DNA of 22,234 nucleotides from a virus, in the IMG/VR virus record IMGVR_UViG_3300037153_000208, positions 1 to 22,234 of that record; one strand, given 5' to 3'. Made by a program: the position numbers and the translations under genes. Shown piece after piece: positions 721 to 22,158 of the stretch (position 1 is the first letter of the stretch; the number at the start of each line of letters is the position of its first letter). Under the pieces are notes generated by a model. The model saw only the letters and a list, made by a program, of their open reading frames with translations, made no database searches and was not told the origin of the DNA.

Positions 721-1370
721 TGCCAGCGACCCGCGCGCTCGTCGACCGGCGACACCTCGCCCGGCAGTCGGCGATCCGAGTCGTGACCGGCGACCGGCTC
801 GCGTTCATGCTCCGAGCGCTGCCCGACCTCGAGCAGGAATCGATCGACCGCTACGTCGCCGGCGCCTACCCGACCGTGCTCGGCGGCCAGCGCGTCGCCG
901 CCGACACCGCGGCCGCCTACACGACCCTGCTCGCCGGCAGCCGCCGCCGAGTAGGAGCTCGCCCCGTCAACGTCGACCTGGCGCTCGCGCGGAGCGGCGT
1001 CCTGGTCGCCGCTGACAGCCGGTCGCTCGTCGCGCCGGTGCTCCGCGCTCGACATCTGGCCGCCGAGGGCGCGACGACGCGTGAGGCGCTCGCCGGCGCG
1101 ACCGGCTACGCCCGGCAGCTCTCGGGCGGCGACTTGCAGGCGGCGATGCGGGTCGGCTCGAGCGAGGGCGCCGACGCCGCCGACCTCCAGGTGACCGGCT
1201 GGCGCAAGGCGCTCAGCCCGGAGGCGTGCGACTGGTGCGCCGACATCGCCGACAACGTCTACGACTCGCCCGAGGACATCCCGTTTCACGACGGCGACCG
1301 CTGTGGCGCCGAGCCCGACCTCGGGGAGCGCGAGCCCGCACGCTTCGACGACTCCGACATCCCGTTCTAA
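720..1370 (+). CDS. MuF-like minor head protein
   Basis: A 216-aa protein placed directly after the portal, the usual site of MuF/SPP1 gp7-type minor capsid proteins. These enter the procapsid with the portal and help DNA packaging or ejection; some relatives are annotated as capsid maturation proteases. The C-terminal signature is visible: a CDWC pair at about residues 173-176 (EACDWCADIADNVY), then IPFHDGDRCGAEP, giving a C-x2-C...H...C arrangement that may bind metal. The rest is Ala/Arg-rich and mostly helical. The ATG overlaps the portal stop by one base. The stop is followed at once by the GGAGGG ribosome site of the scaffold gene. No protease catalytic set is evident, so MuF-like is preferred over protease. 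Confidence 0.75.
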   Translation: MPATRALVDRRHLARQSAIRVVTGDRLAFMLRALPDLEQESIDRYVAGAYPTVLGGQRVAADTAAAYTTLLAGSRRRVGARPVNVDLALARSGVLVAADSRSLVAPVLRARHLAAEGATTREALAGATGYARQLSGGDLQAAMRVGSSEGADAADLQVTGWRKALSPEACDWCADIADNVYDSPEDIPFHDGDRCGAEPDLGEREPARFDDSDIPF

Positions 1371-1379
1371 GGAGGGCCG

Positions 1380-2033
1380 ATGGCCGACGACCAGCAGCAG
1401 CAGAACGACGACCAGCAGCAGCAGCAGCAGCAGAACGACGACCAGCAGCAGGACGACCGCGACGACCGGCGCCAGGACGATGACCAGCAGCAAGGCGACG
1501 ACGAGCGCGCGATCGACGAGATCCGCAAGGACCCGGCCGGCGCGTTCCGCCGGATGCTCGGCCTCCAGAGCGAAGCCGGCGACTACCGCCGGCGGCTGCG
1601 CGACGTCGAGCGCGAACGCGACGAGCTCAAGCGCGCCGGCCTCGACGACCAGGAGCGCGCCGTCGCCGAGGCCGAGGCCCGCGGCCGGCAGGCCGCCGAA
1701 GAGGCCTACGGGCGGCGCACGCTCGAAGCGGAGATCCGCGCGGCCGCGGCCGGCAAGCTGCAGGACCCGGCCGACGCGATCCGCTACCTCGACGTCGCCG
1801 CGCTGCTCGAGCTCGACGACGAGCGCGAGCGCGAGCGCGAGCTCGGCAAGGCGATCGACAAGCTGGTCGACGACAAGCCCTACCTCGCCGGCACGAACGG
1901 CGACGGGCCGACGCCGACCCGCGGCGTCCCCCGCAGCTCGCAGGGAGCACGCTCGAGGGCCGGCGGCGGAACGAGCGCCGACCAGGACGGCAACGCCTGG
2001 ATGCGCAAGGCCGCAGGACGCAGCCGACGCTAG
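1380..2033 (+). CDS. Capsid scaffolding protein with D/Q-rich N-terminus
   Basis: 217 aa, very polar. Residues 3 to about 42 are a low-complexity run of Asp and Gln (DDQQQQNDDQQQQQQQ-type). A charged coiled coil follows at about residues 58-115, rich in RDVERERDELKRAG-like heptads, and then a basic Gly/Arg tail (about 175-217). Length, composition and place between MuF and capsid fit phage scaffolding proteins, which line the procapsid and leave or are degraded before packaging. A basic C-terminus that binds the coat is usual in the class. A clear GGAGGG site at 1371-1376 fixes the ATG at 1380. Odd point: the D/Q block recurs in the 44-aa gene at 6277. Family assignment rests on composition and synteny. 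Confidence 0.75.
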   Translation: MADDQQQQNDDQQQQQQQNDDQQQDDRDDRRQDDDQQQGDDERAIDEIRKDPAGAFRRMLGLQSEAGDYRRRLRDVERERDELKRAGLDDQERAVAEAEARGRQAAEEAYGRRTLEAEIRAAAAGKLQDPADAIRYLDVAALLELDDERERERELGKAIDKLVDDKPYLAGTNGDGPTPTRGVPRSSQGARSRAGGGTSADQDGNAWMRKAAGRSRR

Positions 2034-3670: not shown

Positions 3671-5760
3671 GCGGACCCGAGGCGACCGTCGATGTCGAGC
3701 TGATCGGCGACGTCGACGTCGACGTCGACCTCGACGGGCCCGACCTCGTCACCGACCTCGCCGAGGAGCTCACGCTCACGATCGTCGCCTCGAACGCCGG
3801 GCCGCCCGGGCCGCCCGGGCCGGAAGGCGACCCGGGGCCTCCGGGGCCCGCCGGGCCTGCCGGGGCGCAGGGTGCGCAAGGCCCGCCGGGGCCGTCGGGC
3901 GCCGACTCGACCGTGCCCGGGCCGCCGGGGCCGCCCGGAGCTCAGGGCGAGCAGGGCGACGCCGGACCCGCCGGGCCGACTGGGCCGAGCGGCCCGCCCG
4001 GCTCGGAGGGCGCGCAGGGCCCGGCCGGGATCAAGGGCGACACCGGGCCGGAAGGACCCCCAGGGCCGCCCGGCTCTCAAGGTGTGCAGGGCGTCAAGGG
4101 CGACACCGGGGCCGCCGGGCCGGAAGGCCCGCAGGGCGATCCGGGCCCGCAGGGCCCGCAGGGCGACGTCGGCCCGGCAGGCCCGCAGGGCCCGCAGGGA
4201 ATCGAGGGGCCCGAGGGGCCCGCCGGGGCGGGCGCCGTCCAGTGGGCCTACATGTATTCGGCGACGACGACCGAGCCGCCGACCGGCTCGCAACTGCGCT
4301 TCGACGCCGGGCCGGCAGCGGCGACGAAGGTGTGGGTCCGCGACCTCGACGTCGACGGCGTCGACAACCACTCGCTCTTCCTGGCAGTCAAGCCCGGCTC
4401 GCTCCTCTACGTGCAGGACCAGGACGACTCGAGCCGCTTCGCCCGCTTCGACGTCGTCGGCGACCCGATCGGAAAGTCGGGCTACGTCGAGTTCCCCGTC
4501 TCATACGTGAGCTCGGGCGGAACGATCCCCGAGCAGCGGGTCGAGCTCGTGATCGCCGCCGCCGGGATCGCCGGGCCGCAGGGGCCGCAGGGTCCGCCCG
4601 GTCCCGCAGGCCCGCAGGGCCCGGACGGTCCGCAGGGCGCCGCCGGAACGCCCGGAGCTCAGGGGCCGCCCGGGGCGACCGGCTCAGCCGGGCCGAAGGG
4701 CGACAAGGGTGACACCGGCGCGCAGGGCGCGCCCGGGGCGACCGGCTCGCAGGGGCCGCAGGGCCCGACCGGCTCGCAAGGCCCGGCAGGCGCACCCGGC
4801 GACGAATGGATCTACGGCACCGGCGACCCGACTCCTTCGGCCGACCGGGTGGGGACGCTCTACCTCGACGGCGCGACAGGCAAGGTGTGGGAGCAGCAGG
4901 CGTCCGGGTGGGTGTTCACCGGGCTCGTGCTGCGAGGCCCGCAGGGGCCGCAGGGTCCGGCGGGAACCGCCGTAGTCGACGTGCAGGCGTTCACCGCGTC
5001 GGGCACGTGGACGAAGCCTGCCGGTGTCACGACGGTATGGGTTGTCTGTATCGGCGGCGGCGGCGGTGGCGGCGGCGGCAGACTCGGCAGCGGCTCGACG
5101 GTGCGTGGTGGCGGCGGCGGCGGTGGTGGCGGCGGCTACACCGGGCGGATGCTTAGGGCATCGACGCTCGCCGCGACCGAGGCCGCCACTGTCGGCGGCG
5201 GCGGTGCTGGCGGCACCGCGAACGGCGGCGACGGGGGGCCGGGCCTCGCATCGTCGTTCGGCGCATGGCTCAAGGCGAGCGGCGGCGGTGGCGGCTCGGG
5301 CAGCGCGGGCAGCCCGGGTCCGCCCGGCGCTGGCGGTATCGGTGACGTCTACGGTGGCGGCGGCGGCGGTGGCACGGCAACCGGCGGGAGCTCTGGGGTC
5401 GCAGGTACAAGCTCGTCCACCGCCGGGGCTGGCGGCGGCGGCGGCGGCGGCGTCGGGACGAACAACGTCAGCGCCTCGGGCGGCGGCGGCGGATCGTCGG
5501 GAATCGACCTACGGGCAGGCGGCGTCGGCGGTATCGGCAATGTCGGCGGCGGCGGCGCTTCGGCGGCAGCAGGCGACGCGACGGGCGGCGCAGGCGGCGG
5601 CGGCGGCGGCGGCGTCCACAGCGGCAGCGGGCTAACCCTGGACGGCGGCAACGGCGGTAACTACGGCGGCGGCGGCGGCGGCGGCGGCGGCACGGCAGGA
5701 AGCCCCGCAGGCAGAGGCGGCGGCGGCGGCGGCGGAATAGTCGTGGTGGTGTCGTGGTGA
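3667..5760 (+). CDS. Collagen-like, glycine-rich fibre protein
   Basis: 697 aa, GTG start overlapping the previous stop. Layout: acidic N-terminus 1-44; collagen Gly-X-Y block about 45-188 with one break near STVP; a beta-type domain about 189-301 ([13 protein letters not shown] to VELVIAAAG); second collagen block about 302-378; a short spacer with [20 protein letters not shown]; three more triplets near 424; then a glycine-rich domain about 436-697 opening with [19 protein letters not shown] and holding a dozen or more poly-Gly runs separated by variable loops. Collagen repeats suggest a trimeric rod. The Gly-rich end matches the tip domain of many phage fibres and recalls the polyglycine-II sandwich of phage adhesins. 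Position in the head module, not the tail, suggests a capsid fibre; a tail fibre is the alternative. Confidence 0.8.
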
Positions 5761-17709: not shown

Positions 17710-17900
17710 CCGACGGACCCGAGATCACCGCGATGCTCGAGGAGCGCTGCCGGCAGCTACGCCGCCGCTTCCCCGGCTTCGAGTTCCGCGTCGACCCCGC
17801 GCCGACCGCGAGACGGGCGCGGCGTCGGCGGCCCGTCGCCCCGGAACCGGAGCTCGACCTGCTGCTCGATCGGCGGCCGCGGGCCCGACGGCCGACGTGA
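17706..17900 (+). CDS. Arg-rich small protein antisense to integrase 3' end
   Basis: 64 aa, ATGA overlap with the preceding membrane protein. N-terminal helix (TDGPEITAMLEERCRQLRRR), then FPGFEFRVDPAPTA and a strongly basic tail (RRARRRRPVAPEPELDLLLD, RRPRARRPT). Bases 17757-17900 overlap the convergent integrase gene on the other strand for 144 bp. Both frames are open in this GC-rich DNA, so one of them could be a chance extension. The coupled start favours this gene being translated; the basic tail could bind nucleic acid or be an artefact of the antisense integrase codons. Low to moderate confidence. Confidence 0.4.
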   Translation: MTDGPEITAMLEERCRQLRRRFPGFEFRVDPAPTARRARRRRPVAPEPELDLLLDRRPRARRPT

Positions 17901-19238
17901 GACGATGACCGCGTCGAGGCCTGCCCTGATCATCCCGCGCCGCTCGTCCAGATCCTCGGGCCACACCTGGTCGCGATCGAGGAGCTCCGCGTCAGCCGCC
18001 GAGCCGACCGCCTCCGCGAGCTCGCCCTTCACCGCGGCGATCTCGTCGTCGATCTTCTGCAGCGCCCGCAGCGCCGCCTCGGGTCCGAGCTGGAGAGCGA
18101 AGGCCCCGTCCTCGTACATGAGCCGCTGCTCGCGCAGCGCCGCCAGCCGCGAGTGCAGCTCGACGACGTCGACCTCGACCGCGACCCGCGAGATCCGCGA
18201 CCGGGCCGACTCGAAGCGCTCGCGCGCGGCCGCCTCGACGTACTCCTCGAGCTCGCCCGCAGGGATCGACGCCGGCGCCGCACACTTCTCGGACGACGCG
18301 CTGTGAGCCCGACACCGATAGACGCCGCCGCCGGCACCCTGCTTCGAGAGGCCATAGCCGCAGGACGCGCAGCGAGCGATCCCGCCCGCGAGGAGCGCGA
18401 CCGTCGAGCGCGGCACCGCCCGCGGCTCGGGCCGCTCGAGCGCCTGCACCGTGTCGAACACCGGCAGCTCGACCAGCACCGGATGGGCGCCGGGCTTCGA
18501 ATACTTCCCCTGCCGGGCCTCACCGAGGTAGACGCGGTTCCGCAGAAGCCGCTTCACCGTGTCTCTCGTCCAGCGGCCGCGACCATCGGGGCCGCCCGGC
18601 AGGAGCTCCTCGAGGAGCGCGACCACCGCGCTGACCGGCGCGCCGGTCGCGCGCAGCTCGAATGCCGACGTGACCGCCGGCGCCGCCTTCGGATCGATCT
18701 CGAGCGGCCGGGCCGGCTCGCCCGGCTCGACGATCGGCCGGCGATAGCCGACCGGACACTTCGCCGAGATGTGGACGCCGCGAGCGATCGCCCGCCGCTT
18801 CGAATGGTCGGCGCGCCGGGCGTACTGCTTCCACTGCTCACGCGCGAGCGCCGCCCGCACCGCAAAGTTCAGCTCGTGGTCGCCGGTCGCCGTGTCGATT
18901 CCGTCAGCGACGACGACCAGCCGCACACCGGCACGCTGCAGGGCGTCGTAGACCTCAGCGGTCGCAAGGCCGTTCTCGCGCGAGAGCCGCGAGAGCTCCT
19001 CGACGACGATGCCGCCGGCAGCGCCGCGCTCGCACGCCTCGATGACGTCGCCGAGCTCGCGGTCGCGCCAGGGCTTCGAGCCCGACACGCCGGCCTCGAA
19101 CACCGGCTCGAGGAGCGGCACGCCGGCAGCGGCCGCCCACCCGTCGATCGCGCCGAGCTGGCGATCGCGCGAGACGGCAGGATCCTCCTTCGCCGACTTG
19201 CGGGCGTAAGGGATCAGGGCTTCGTTCGACTTCTTCAC
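17757..19238 (-). CDS. Large serine integrase
   Basis: 493 aa from GTG 19238, with GGAGG 6 nt before it. It catalyses site-specific recombination between attP and attB. Domains: resolvase-type catalytic domain about 8-150 with Y-A-R-K-S (Arg13, nucleophile Ser15), SRDRQL and the LSRLSREN motif (Arg84, Arg87); recombinase domain about 160-275 (HISAKCPVGYRR, then KRLLRNRVYLGEARQGKYSK); zinc ribbon with Cys290, Cys293, Cys309 and Cys319; coiled-coil region about 355-410 within the last domain. The tail (from about 450) is Pro/Arg/Gly-rich. Length and layout are standard for the class. It is leftward, divergent from the coiled-coil gene at 19334 and convergent with the small-gene operon. Confidence 0.95.
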   Translation of the reverse strand: MKKSNEALIPYARKSAKEDPAVSRDRQLGAIDGWAAAAGVPLLEPVFEAGVSGSKPWRDRELGDVIEACERGAAGGIVVEELSRLSRENGLATAEVYDALQRAGVRLVVVADGIDTATGDHELNFAVRAALAREQWKQYARRADHSKRRAIARGVHISAKCPVGYRRPIVEPGEPARPLEIDPKAAPAVTSAFELRATGAPVSAVVALLEELLPGGPDGRGRWTRDTVKRLLRNRVYLGEARQGKYSKPGAHPVLVELPVFDTVQALERPEPRAVPRSTVALLAGGIARCASCGYGLSKQGAGGGVYRCRAHSASSEKCAAPASIPAGELEEYVEAAARERFESARSRISRVAVEVDVVELHSRLAALREQRLMYEDGAFALQLGPEAALRALQKIDDEIAAVKGELAEAVGSAADAELLDRDQVWPEDLDERRGMIRAGLDAVIVSRRPSGPRPPIEQQVELRFRGDGPPTPRPSRGRRGVDAELEAGEAAA

Positions 19239-20061: not shown

Positions 20062-20360
20062 CTAGGCCGGCCTCAGCGGGGCCAGTCCGGCCCGAGCTCG
20101 GCAGGGCATGGCCAGGCGCGGCGCGGAGATGCGCGGCAAGAACATGGCCAGGCTCGGCGCGGCGTGGCGGGGCTCGGCACGGCGTGGCACGGCACGGCGG
20201 GGCATGGCGATGCTCGGCGCGGTCCGGCTTGGCGGGGCATGGCGACGCGCACGCCCACGGAGGTGGTGAGGCCGTGACCTGAACCGCTCGACGAGAGAGC
20301 CGCGAGGGAGGCCGTCCCGCCCCCCTCGCACCTACACACACACGCGGAAGGAGTCTAAAC
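20062..20360 (+). other. Intergenic stretch holding pentamer array 1
   Basis: 299 bases between the Rpf-like gene and the 246-aa gene. The pentamer array occupies 20100-20245. After it comes a leader with cacacacacacg-like sequence (about 20334-20343) and the ribosome site GGAAGGAG (20346-20353). A frame opened by ATG 20058 (ATGA with the previous stop) stays open to 20282 (74 aa, R/G/A/H-rich), but its peptide simply mirrors the pentamers, so it is not listed as a gene. No terminator is evident. Confidence 0.6.
20100..20245 (+). repeat. Degenerate pentamer array 1, (GGCNN)n
   Basis: From 20146 to 20245 the sequence divides into 20 consecutive pentamers without a single indel; 18 begin with GGC (exceptions tgctc and ggtcc), while the last two bases take many values (ca, tc, gc, gt, gg, ac, at, ga, tt). 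A first section, 20100-20144, has nine more pentamers (6 with GGC) and is joined by one extra T at 20145. The period is 5, so it is not a codon effect. All units face the same way as the flanking genes, with the G-rich strand as the coding strand. Confidence 0.85.
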
Positions 20361-21101
20361 GTGACCACCGCAAAGGCCAAGACGACGATGTGGATGCGGC
20401 GAGTGGTGCCGCCCGGCTACCAGCGGGCGACCCTGCTCATGACCGGCACCGCACCGCTGCTGATGAACAGCGGCGAGTTCGACCGCGACAGCGAGACGTA
20501 TCGCGCCTACTACCTGCTCGGCAAGAAGCGCGGCAAGAGCCTCGACGACGAGGCCCGCCTGCGCGAGCTCGAGTGGTCGCTCGGCATCTACCTCGACGAC
20601 GAGGCCGGCCCGTACATCCCCGGCAAGAACGTCAAGGAGCTCCTGCGCTCAGCGGCGACGAAGTGGCGCAAGGGCGAAGAGGTGAAGCGGTCGCTGGTCG
20701 TCGTCGACTACCGAATCCCGCTGCTCTACGACGGGCCGCGCACCGCCGACGAGCTGTGGGCGGCCGGCTTCAAGTACGAGGCGATGGTCGCGCTCTCGGG
20801 CGCCGGCAGCGGCCGCGTCGTCAAGTGCCGGCCGAAGTTCGACGACTGGTCGCTGATCGCCGAGCTCGCCTACGACCCCGAGGACCTCGACTTCGACTTC
20901 CTCGAGCTCGTCGTCGAGCGCTCCAAGAAGTTCGGCCTCGGCGACTACCGGCCCGAGTTCGGCTCGTTCGAGGCCGAGCTCCAGGCGGGCGACCTGCACA
21001 AGCTCGCCTCGAACGGCAACGCGACCAAGGGCCGGAACGCCGCGCAGCTGAAGGCGCACCTGGCGATGGTCGACCGCGTGATGGTCGGAGCCGCCGCATG
21101 A
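20361..21101 (+). CDS. Conserved phage-type protein of unknown function, between the two arrays
   Basis: 246 aa from GTG 20361, with GGAAGGAG 7 nt upstream. Visible motifs: RATLLMTGTAPLLMNSGEFD (23-42), a charged helix (LGKKRGKSLDDEARLRELEW), GPYIPGKNVKELLRSAATKW (83-102), YRIPLLYDGPRTADELW (117-133), GSGRVVKCRPKFDDWSL (149-165) and GLGDYRPEFGSFEAEL (192-207). I recall uncharacterised phage proteins with the same PLLM-N-S, GPYIPG-N and GLGDYRP-x-x-G signatures. The alternating strands and late Gly-rich segment loosely recall RAMP/Cas7-like folds, but that is only a hypothesis. Its neighbour is a PD-(D/E)XK nuclease, so a partner role in recombination, such as strand annealing or ssDNA binding, is reasonable. 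ATGA follows its last codon. Confidence 0.6.
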   Translation: MTTAKAKTTMWMRRVVPPGYQRATLLMTGTAPLLMNSGEFDRDSETYRAYYLLGKKRGKSLDDEARLRELEWSLGIYLDDEAGPYIPGKNVKELLRSAATKWRKGEEVKRSLVVVDYRIPLLYDGPRTADELWAAGFKYEAMVALSGAGSGRVVKCRPKFDDWSLIAELAYDPEDLDFDFLELVVERSKKFGLGDYRPEFGSFEAELQAGDLHKLASNGNATKGRNAAQLKAHLAMVDRVMVGAAA

Positions 21102-21378
21102 CGTCTCGCCGCGGCCTTGTGCGGCACGGCAGGGTTGGCGCGGCTGGGCGCGGCGCGGCAGCCCAGGGCTTGGCGGAGCGGGGCAGTGCAAAGCTCAGCG
21201 CGGCACAGCGCGGCCTGGCGGGGCAGTGCGGGGCTTGGCTCGGCAGAGCGTCTCCTGGCACGGCTCGGCACGGCGCGGTCGGGCCCGGCGCGGTGAGCAT
21301 GGTTGGGCCGGGCGGGCCGAGGCCGGGCGAGGCTCGGCAAGGCGTGGCGAGCTCGACGCGGCATAGAGGGGCGGCGCG
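21102..21378 (+). other. Intergenic stretch holding pentamer array 2
   Basis: 277 bases between the 246-aa gene and the nuclease gene, almost filled by the array at 21123-21350. A frame from ATG 21098 (ATGA with the upstream stop) to TGA 21382 (ATGA with the nuclease start) is open throughout, 94 aa rich in Gly, Ala and Arg. The repeat contains few stop triplets in any frame, so this is weak evidence for coding and it is not listed as a gene. No ribosome site better than AGGGGCGG-like sequence (21367-21374) precedes the nuclease ATG. Confidence 0.55.
21123..21350 (+). repeat. Degenerate pentamer array 2, (GGCNN)n
   Basis: From 21136 to 21300 there are 33 uninterrupted pentamers of the form NGGCN; GC is kept at positions 3-4 in 28 and the full GGC in 21. 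After a phase change, 21301-21350 holds ten more, 8 starting with GGC (for example ggccg ggcga ggctc ggcaa ggcgt). A short start at 21123-21132 (ggcac ggcag) is in another phase. It has the same orientation and logic as array 1 but the pentamers are not copied from it in order, so the two arrays share a rule and not a recent common sequence. Confidence 0.85.
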
Positions 21379-22158
21379 ATGAGCGCCGCCCCGACCCTGC
21401 CCGGCCAGCGCCGCAACCACGGCCGCGGCCACAGCTACCGGATCGACGGCGAACGCGTCCCGAGCATCACCGGCATCCTCCGCGCGATCGCGAAGCCCGG
21501 CCTCGTCAACTGGGCCAGCGGCGAGTCGGCCAAGTACGCGATCAACCACTGGGACGAGCTCGCCGAGCTCCTGCCCTCGGAGCGGCTCGATCGGATCAAG
21601 GGAGCGCCGGACGAGTACCGCGACGCCCGCGGCGCTGTCGGCAAGAACGTGCACACGCTGATCGAGCAGATGATCCGCGCCGGCGAGGCCGACGTCGCCG
21701 ACGAGCTCAAGGGCTACGCCGACGCCTGGGATCGCTTCGACGAGGACTGGCAGCCGAAGCCGCTGCTCGTCGAGGAACCGTTCTACAACCGGACCGCCGG
21801 CTACGCCGGCACCCCCGACCTCGTCGCCGAGCTCGCCGACGGCCAACTGTGGCTGCTCGACTGGAAAACCGCGCTCAAGGGCATCTGGCCCGAGATCGCG
21901 CTCCAGCTCGCCGCCGCCCGCTTCGCCGAGTTCACGGTCGGCGACGACGGCCAGGAGCTCCCCGTACCGAAGGTCGACGCCTGCGCCGGCATCGAGATCC
22001 GCAGCGACGGCACCTACGACCTCAAGCCGGTCACCGCCGACGGCGAGGCCTTCGGGATCTTCCTCTACCTCAAGCACGTCGCCGACTTCACCGAGGACGG
22101 CCGCGACCGCTGGATCGGCGACGCGCTCCTACCACCGTCGAACGGAGGTGCACCATGA
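21379..22158 (+). CDS. PD-(D/E)XK nuclease, Cas4/RecB-like
   Basis: 259 aa, ATG 21379. The catalytic core is readable: helix with GKNVHTLIEQMI (His92), Glu132/Glu133 in LLVEEPFYN, GYAGTPDLVAEL (Asp147), LWLLDWKT (Asp161, Lys163) and the helix WPEIALQLAAARFAEF (Glu172, Gln176). This is the usual Glu...Asp...Asp-x-Lys...Gln order of RecB/Cas4-type and YqaJ-type exonucleases. No Fe-S cysteine cluster is present (a single Cys near residue 203), unlike Cas4. Phage members digest one strand to feed a recombinase or process replication ends. It sits after the unknown 246-aa gene, like an exonuclease/annealing-protein pair. The C-terminus overlaps the next start by 4 nt. Confidence 0.85.
   Translation: MSAAPTLPGQRRNHGRGHSYRIDGERVPSITGILRAIAKPGLVNWASGESAKYAINHWDELAELLPSERLDRIKGAPDEYRDARGAVGKNVHTLIEQMIRAGEADVADELKGYADAWDRFDEDWQPKPLLVEEPFYNRTAGYAGTPDLVAELADGQLWLLDWKTALKGIWPEIALQLAAARFAEFTVGDDGQELPVPKVDACAGIEIRSDGTYDLKPVTADGEAFGIFLYLKHVADFTEDGRDRWIGDALLPPSNGGAP

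Follow-up and report, generated by a model that had tools for sequence, protein, structure and literature searches.

The pentanucleotide arrays and the gene between them

The window analysed here (the whole stretch of 22,234 nucleotides of the IMG/VR virus record IMGVR_UViG_3300037153_000208) contains two arrays in which a GGC triplet recurs in 5-nt register while the two following letters (NN) vary widely. The locus raises the question of what maintains the triplet and its spacing, and which part the enclosed gene plays: the GGCNN arrays (20100-20245 and 21113-21350) are located on either side of a gene for a 246-aa protein (20361-21101), and both lie on its sense strand (+). The features are listed below; the terms vipr and vrRNA anticipate the assignment given in the next section.

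20100..20144, + strand: array 1, 5' part; nine pentamers, six of them GGCNN; 1-nt register slip at the end
20146..20245, + strand: array 1 core; 20 in-register GGYNN units, no indel; predicted vrRNA guide region(s)
20246..20360, + strand: segment between array 1 and vipr; possible vrRNA tail and/or leader
20361..21101, + strand: vipr; 246-aa protein of predicted RAMP/Cas7 fold (sequence and model), PHROG 4652, homologue of SUSP1 Vipr (PDB 36pp)
21113..21131, + strand: start of array 2; three or four units, then a 1-nt slip
21137..21296, + strand: main run of array 2; 32 in-register units, mostly GGC/GGT
21301..21350, + strand: last run of array 2; 10 units in shifted register
21368..21392, + strand: 10-bp perfect G+C hairpin directly 3' of array 2; candidate vrRNA tail or boundary
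21379..22158, + strand: PD-(D/E)XK exonuclease, PHROG 298; neighbour 3' of array 2

The core of array 1 is composed of 18 GGC units, one GGT (GGTCC) and one TGC (TGCTC); the 20 indel-free pentamers with 18 GGC, and the nine further ones before a 1-nt slip, which had been described in a first-pass annotation made from the sequence alone, were confirmed. Several degenerate NGC units are present in the main run of array 2, and CCC and CTC units also occur in this array. The autocorrelation proposed at that time as a check clearly exceeded Markov shuffles: identity at lag 5 amounted to 0.546 in array 1 (shuffles 0.342 +/- 0.039, z 5.3) and to 0.553 in array 2 (21102-21370; z 6.4), and the signal of both arrays recurred at lags 10 and 15. 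A scan of both strands of the window for further runs of at least four GGCNN gave none outside the two intergenic stretches that border the 20361 gene. The arrays are real and non-random, and the earlier view holds that GGC and the 5-nt spacing are kept while NN is free, and that this is no microsatellite.

No CRISPR repeat-spacer pattern was found at the locus, which displayed 5-nt periodic units only. The Rfam search of the window and ten array loci returned no known RNA, a sigma-70 promoter or T-run terminator was not found close to the arrays, and the peptide obtained by reading array 1 as codon letters had no tblastn match in phages; a literature search for pentanucleotide repeats in phages gave nothing useful.

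The array-linked protein family and the VIPR system

In phmmer, the 246-aa protein matched a single PDB chain, 36pp, the "SUSP1 Vipr protein" (E 3.5e-17). Both proteins match PHROG 4652 (131.6 bits for the window protein, 322.8 bits for SUSP1 Vipr), a family of unknown function that was likewise matched by 65 of 66 sampled members of the array-linked family described below; no Pfam model was found for the Vipr family protein. The reading frame of the window gene is intact and the RAMP motifs are conserved. An AlphaFold2 model (pLDDT 86.9, pTM 0.81) was compared with known structures by Foldseek: all 50 PDB matches listed were Cas7-type CRISPR subunits of type III and type VII complexes, the best among those listed being 6ifl_F (E 3.1e-7). 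According to the model, the protein belongs to the RAMP/Cas7 fold, which it would have in common with the Cas7 subunits of class 1 CRISPR-Cas (Csm3, Cmr, type VII). A Cas7 subunit has a footprint of 6 nt on an uninterrupted spacer; the window locus differs from class 1 CRISPR-Cas by its 5-nt GGY/NN units, the missing repeat-spacer array and the single small protein.

Proteins of this kind belong to VIPR, a CRISPR-like system that is used by phages against rival phages, is proposed to predate CRISPR and had been described months earlier (bioRxiv, April 2026; PMC13142463). Its phage RAMP protein, Vipr, works with vrRNAs, each built of 9-16 GGY/NN repeats followed by a 3' tail. Through their NN letters the vrRNAs recognise double-stranded DNA in a pattern that passes over one base between successive pairs; satellites and prophages make up most of the natural targets, and their transcription is repressed (PMC13142463). 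In phage SUSP1, the vrRNAs are discrete RNAs of ~100 nt whose NN letters direct repression (PMC13142463). An accessory gene, vap, is described as typical, its universality not being stated, and staggered arrays with overlapping vrRNAs are mentioned (PMC13142463). The small single-RRM RAMP homologue that characterises VIPR is represented in the window by the 246-aa protein, as judged from the 36pp and PHROG 4652 matches and the Foldseek result.

The linkage between arrays and protein was surveyed in IMG/VR with a pattern of eight consecutive GGC at 5-nt spacing, which retrieved at least 120 stretches. Among the matches listed, the array contigs ranged from 39% to 76% G+C, and the arrays were confined to one strand per locus except in a single perfect microsatellite (L029). 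When all ORFs at the array loci were clustered, the array-adjacent gene repeatedly belonged to one protein family including the window protein (four clusters, joined because they recognised each other in single-pass profile searches). Among the matches listed, this family was present in 88 of ~123 array loci; the suspected partnership of arrays and 246-aa gene was borne out. In some of the loci lacking a family member the array was situated at a contig end. A scan of contigs for homologues detected only two remote relatives (Dokdonella and a Caulobacteraceae MAG).

The reverse, array-blind approach started from 47 homologue loci that were fetched by protein alone and then inspected for arrays. 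Strict arrays were present within 1.2-1.5 kb of the gene in 34 of them, with 8.1 array units per kb near the gene, 0 far from it and 0.06 on the antisense strand. Most of the remaining 13 loci, and the locus of mycobacteriophage prophiBWHA-1, contained degenerate 5-nt arrays as assessed by eye and by a lag-5 score without shuffle control; among the 13, one locus (L178) had no degenerate array and two (L164, L170) had weak ones. Homologues chosen blindly thus carry arrays, and related phages with the same genes but devoid of any array, which had been named beforehand as counter-evidence, were not the pattern encountered. In the homologous loci, an in-register GG was followed by C or T 956 times out of 1032 (93%); the constant part of the repeat is in consequence better written GGY than GGC, although the first-pass annotation was right that GGC is kept in register. 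This survey, performed without the data of the VIPR authors, supports the view that GGY/NN arrays and the RAMP protein co-occur in phage contigs of 32% to 76% G+C.

The flanking arrays, the homology to SUSP1 Vipr, the Cas7-type matches of the model, the family-wide linkage, the preference for C/T at position 3, the placement in the protein tree (see below) and the description of just such a combination in PMC13142463 together lead us to assign the locus, with high confidence, to a phage VIPR system in which the window arrays are the vrRNA (guide-RNA) genes and the 20361-21101 gene encodes Vipr. The membership of the window in VIPR is solid. Counting against the assignment are the chance-level IMG/VR matches of the 1-skip patterns and the slight preference for a 1-nt skip in the pooled test (see below), in-register runs above the published length, the degenerate units of array 2, the lack of a conserved vap gene in the window clade and of a tail structure clearly common to both arrays. 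It is in relatives of the window system only that binding of RNA, the 1-nt skip code and repression were shown (PMC13142463); we infer the guide function of the window arrays from homology and anatomy, and their expression, guide boundaries, target and effect in the window phage are presumed. In such a mechanism, the GGY/NN strand would be transcribed and Vipr subunits would bind the transcripts by gripping GGY in every unit; the NN pairs, left exposed, would base-pair with double-stranded DNA, skipping one target base between successive pairs, and the Vipr-RNA complex would silence genes of competing phages or satellites. The earlier suggestion that the array is recognised by a protein whose footprint is 5 nt came close to this.

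The window thus adds an independent VIPR member, from an uncultured phage and from a divergent clade that the text of PMC13142463 does not treat separately, to a kind of system that is already described and is also recognisable by sequence match as PDB 36pp. The type II VIPR of Escherichia phage SUSP1 resembles it in being phage-encoded and in having sense-strand GGY/NN arrays both before and after vipr; indeed, GGTNN arrays were found on both sides of the SUSP1 Vipr gene, in agreement with PMC13142463. The SUSP1 arrays are mostly GGT, those of the window mostly GGC; the Vipr proteins have ~29% identity over the core, and a C-terminal extension sets them apart; SUSP1 has 9-16 in-register units with a repeated tail, the window 20 and 32; and no vap1 lies beside vipr in the window, unlike in SUSP1. 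The nearest isolated relatives are Gordonia phages Trine and MakoManhole and Mycobacterium phage LittleE (37-43% identity to the window protein), whose arrays adjoin the gene as in the window but are shorter; in LittleE and MakoManhole a neighbour gene (annotated as DNA-binding in MakoManhole) directly follows vipr at the place occupied by array 2 in the window. In Trine, gene 40, annotated as a hypothetical protein (4579-5382 of locus L134), runs through a GGCNN array at 4622-4681; this gene call is probably spurious.

Guide letters, targets and alternative readings

The NN letters are hypervariable both inside an array and from one array to another: 3-unit words seldom recur (87 of 5102), yet more often than in shuffled arrays (31). 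Under the 1-skip rule, array 1 reads CAxTCxGCxGTxGGxTCxACxGTxACxACxGGxATxGAxTCxGCxCCxTTxGGxATxGA. Four 8-unit 1-skip patterns (three from array 1, one from array 2) each had 5-12 exact matches in IMG/VR, none of which extended past chance, so that no target was found there. When 521 array runs were pooled and tested on 1.5 Mb of fetched loci, a skip of 1 was weakly favoured: at a score of at least 16 it gave 12 matches, five of which were dropped as fetched by pattern, leaving 7 versus a shuffled mean of 4.0 (maximum 6). The NN pairs have a dinucleotide bias like natural DNA (TA 0.67 of expected) and the letters across GGY are nearly independent, which is suggestive only; the bias correlates best with codon positions 1-2 on both strands (0.87 vs 0.79 and 0.71), which could reflect a general dinucleotide bias.

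Contig L010, whose protein is 100% identical, differs from window positions 1427-22234 (~20.8 kb) by one base, T to C at 20205. This is an NN position of array 1, and NN letters make up ~0.5% of positions; the difference is suggestive of a guide change, although as a single event it could be an assembly or sequencing error. The remaining L010 differences, small insertions among them, cluster at window 1115-1413, at the L010 contig end (a possible chimera or variable spot).

Three other readings were weighed against guide RNA genes. In the first, the G-rich strand would form structures at the DNA or RNA level (two-tetrad G-quadruplexes, R-loops) from which replication or recombination starts. 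This reading would fit the GG every 5 nt, i.e. (G2N3)n, and the exonuclease, behind which the near-identical contig has a RecT-like gene. It is nevertheless the least probable of all, to a degree that makes it hardly tenable: the third letter is kept as C/T, which a G-quadruplex does not need, from phage to phage the arrays accompany a Cas7-like gene and lie on its sense strand, with none far off, and the recombination genes are not conserved beside vipr in the clade. The G-quadruplex, the R-loop replication start and the loading site for SSB or a recombinase, all considered initially, are set aside, given a Cas7-fold partner (by the model) and a system that makes guide RNAs elsewhere (PMC13142463). 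Slightly less remote, but still very improbable, are arrays that serve as Vipr binding sites in the vipr mRNA (for autoregulation or as assembly scaffold) with NN as a mere spacer and without targeting. Their position on the vipr sense strand on both sides and the failure of the 1-skip patterns to find a target in IMG/VR would agree with this, but the discrete ~100-nt vrRNAs of SUSP1 and the repression directed by their NN letters (PMC13142463) do not, nor, suggestively, do the natural-DNA-like bias of NN and its near independence across GGY.

A decayed or silent VIPR locus with guides no longer working is a sub-case of the VIPR assignment, with overlapping confidence, rather than its opposite, and is considered unlikely: the degenerate NGC, CCC and CTC units of array 2 and the lack of a target match in IMG/VR point in this direction, whereas array 1 is clean, the vipr frame and RAMP motifs are preserved and both arrays are kept in two near-identical genomes.

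Array boundaries and neighbouring genes in the window clade

In the protein tree, the window grouped with L010, L011, L012 and L146 with full support, and this group nests in a 33-row group including SUSP1 (support 96/98). A further close relative, L147 (53% identity), was mis-framed in the tree, and its position there is therefore meaningless. The arrays of the window clade are long and nearly unbroken and lack the repeated linkers of L014, L032 and L074; the in-register runs of the window (20 and 32) exceed the 9-16 repeats published per vrRNA. Such continuous arrays raise the question of where guides begin and end when neither linker nor tail separates the units.

The hairpin at 21368-21392 is a candidate boundary (stretch 21351-21430 folded, z -3.6), while folding of 20246..20360 was not above shuffles (z -0.60), and no tail structure clearly common to array 1 and array 2 was found by folding. 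Hairpins also occur 3' of the arrays in L146, L147 and L012, that of L012 folding no better than shuffles. The ATG annotated for the exonuclease gene (21379) lies in the loop of the window hairpin, which could hold down translation of this gene or delimit the array.

Apart from vipr, no gene neighbour was conserved across the window clade; the scanned neighbours comprised exonuclease, RecT-like, transglycosylase and integrase genes. The exonuclease is probably part of a phage recombination module and not a conserved VIPR accessory. Upstream, at 17757-19238, the window encodes a large serine recombinase (resolvase, recombinase and zinc ribbon domains), which suggests a temperate phage.

Tentatively, and with rather less than even confidence, the window and L011, L012, L146 and L147 might represent a VIPR variant without conserved accessory gene, whose long arrays of 20 to >100 GGY units, unbroken except for small register slips, would be read as overlapping or unusually long guides instead of discrete tailed vrRNAs; in view of the staggered arrays mentioned in PMC13142463, such a variant may already be among its VIPR types.

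Other array loci are organised differently. L014, L032, L074 and L105 have a CRISPR-like layout in which hairpin linkers of ~38-71 nt, near-identical to one another, separate GGCNN blocks 55-105 nt long, the linker of L105 including a stretch like a tRNA T-arm; these linkers are probably repeated vrRNA tails. In L127 and L036, a 7-nt element (GGAACGN or GGTACNN) with a 2-nt register shift lies between array blocks and is a possible guide boundary mark.
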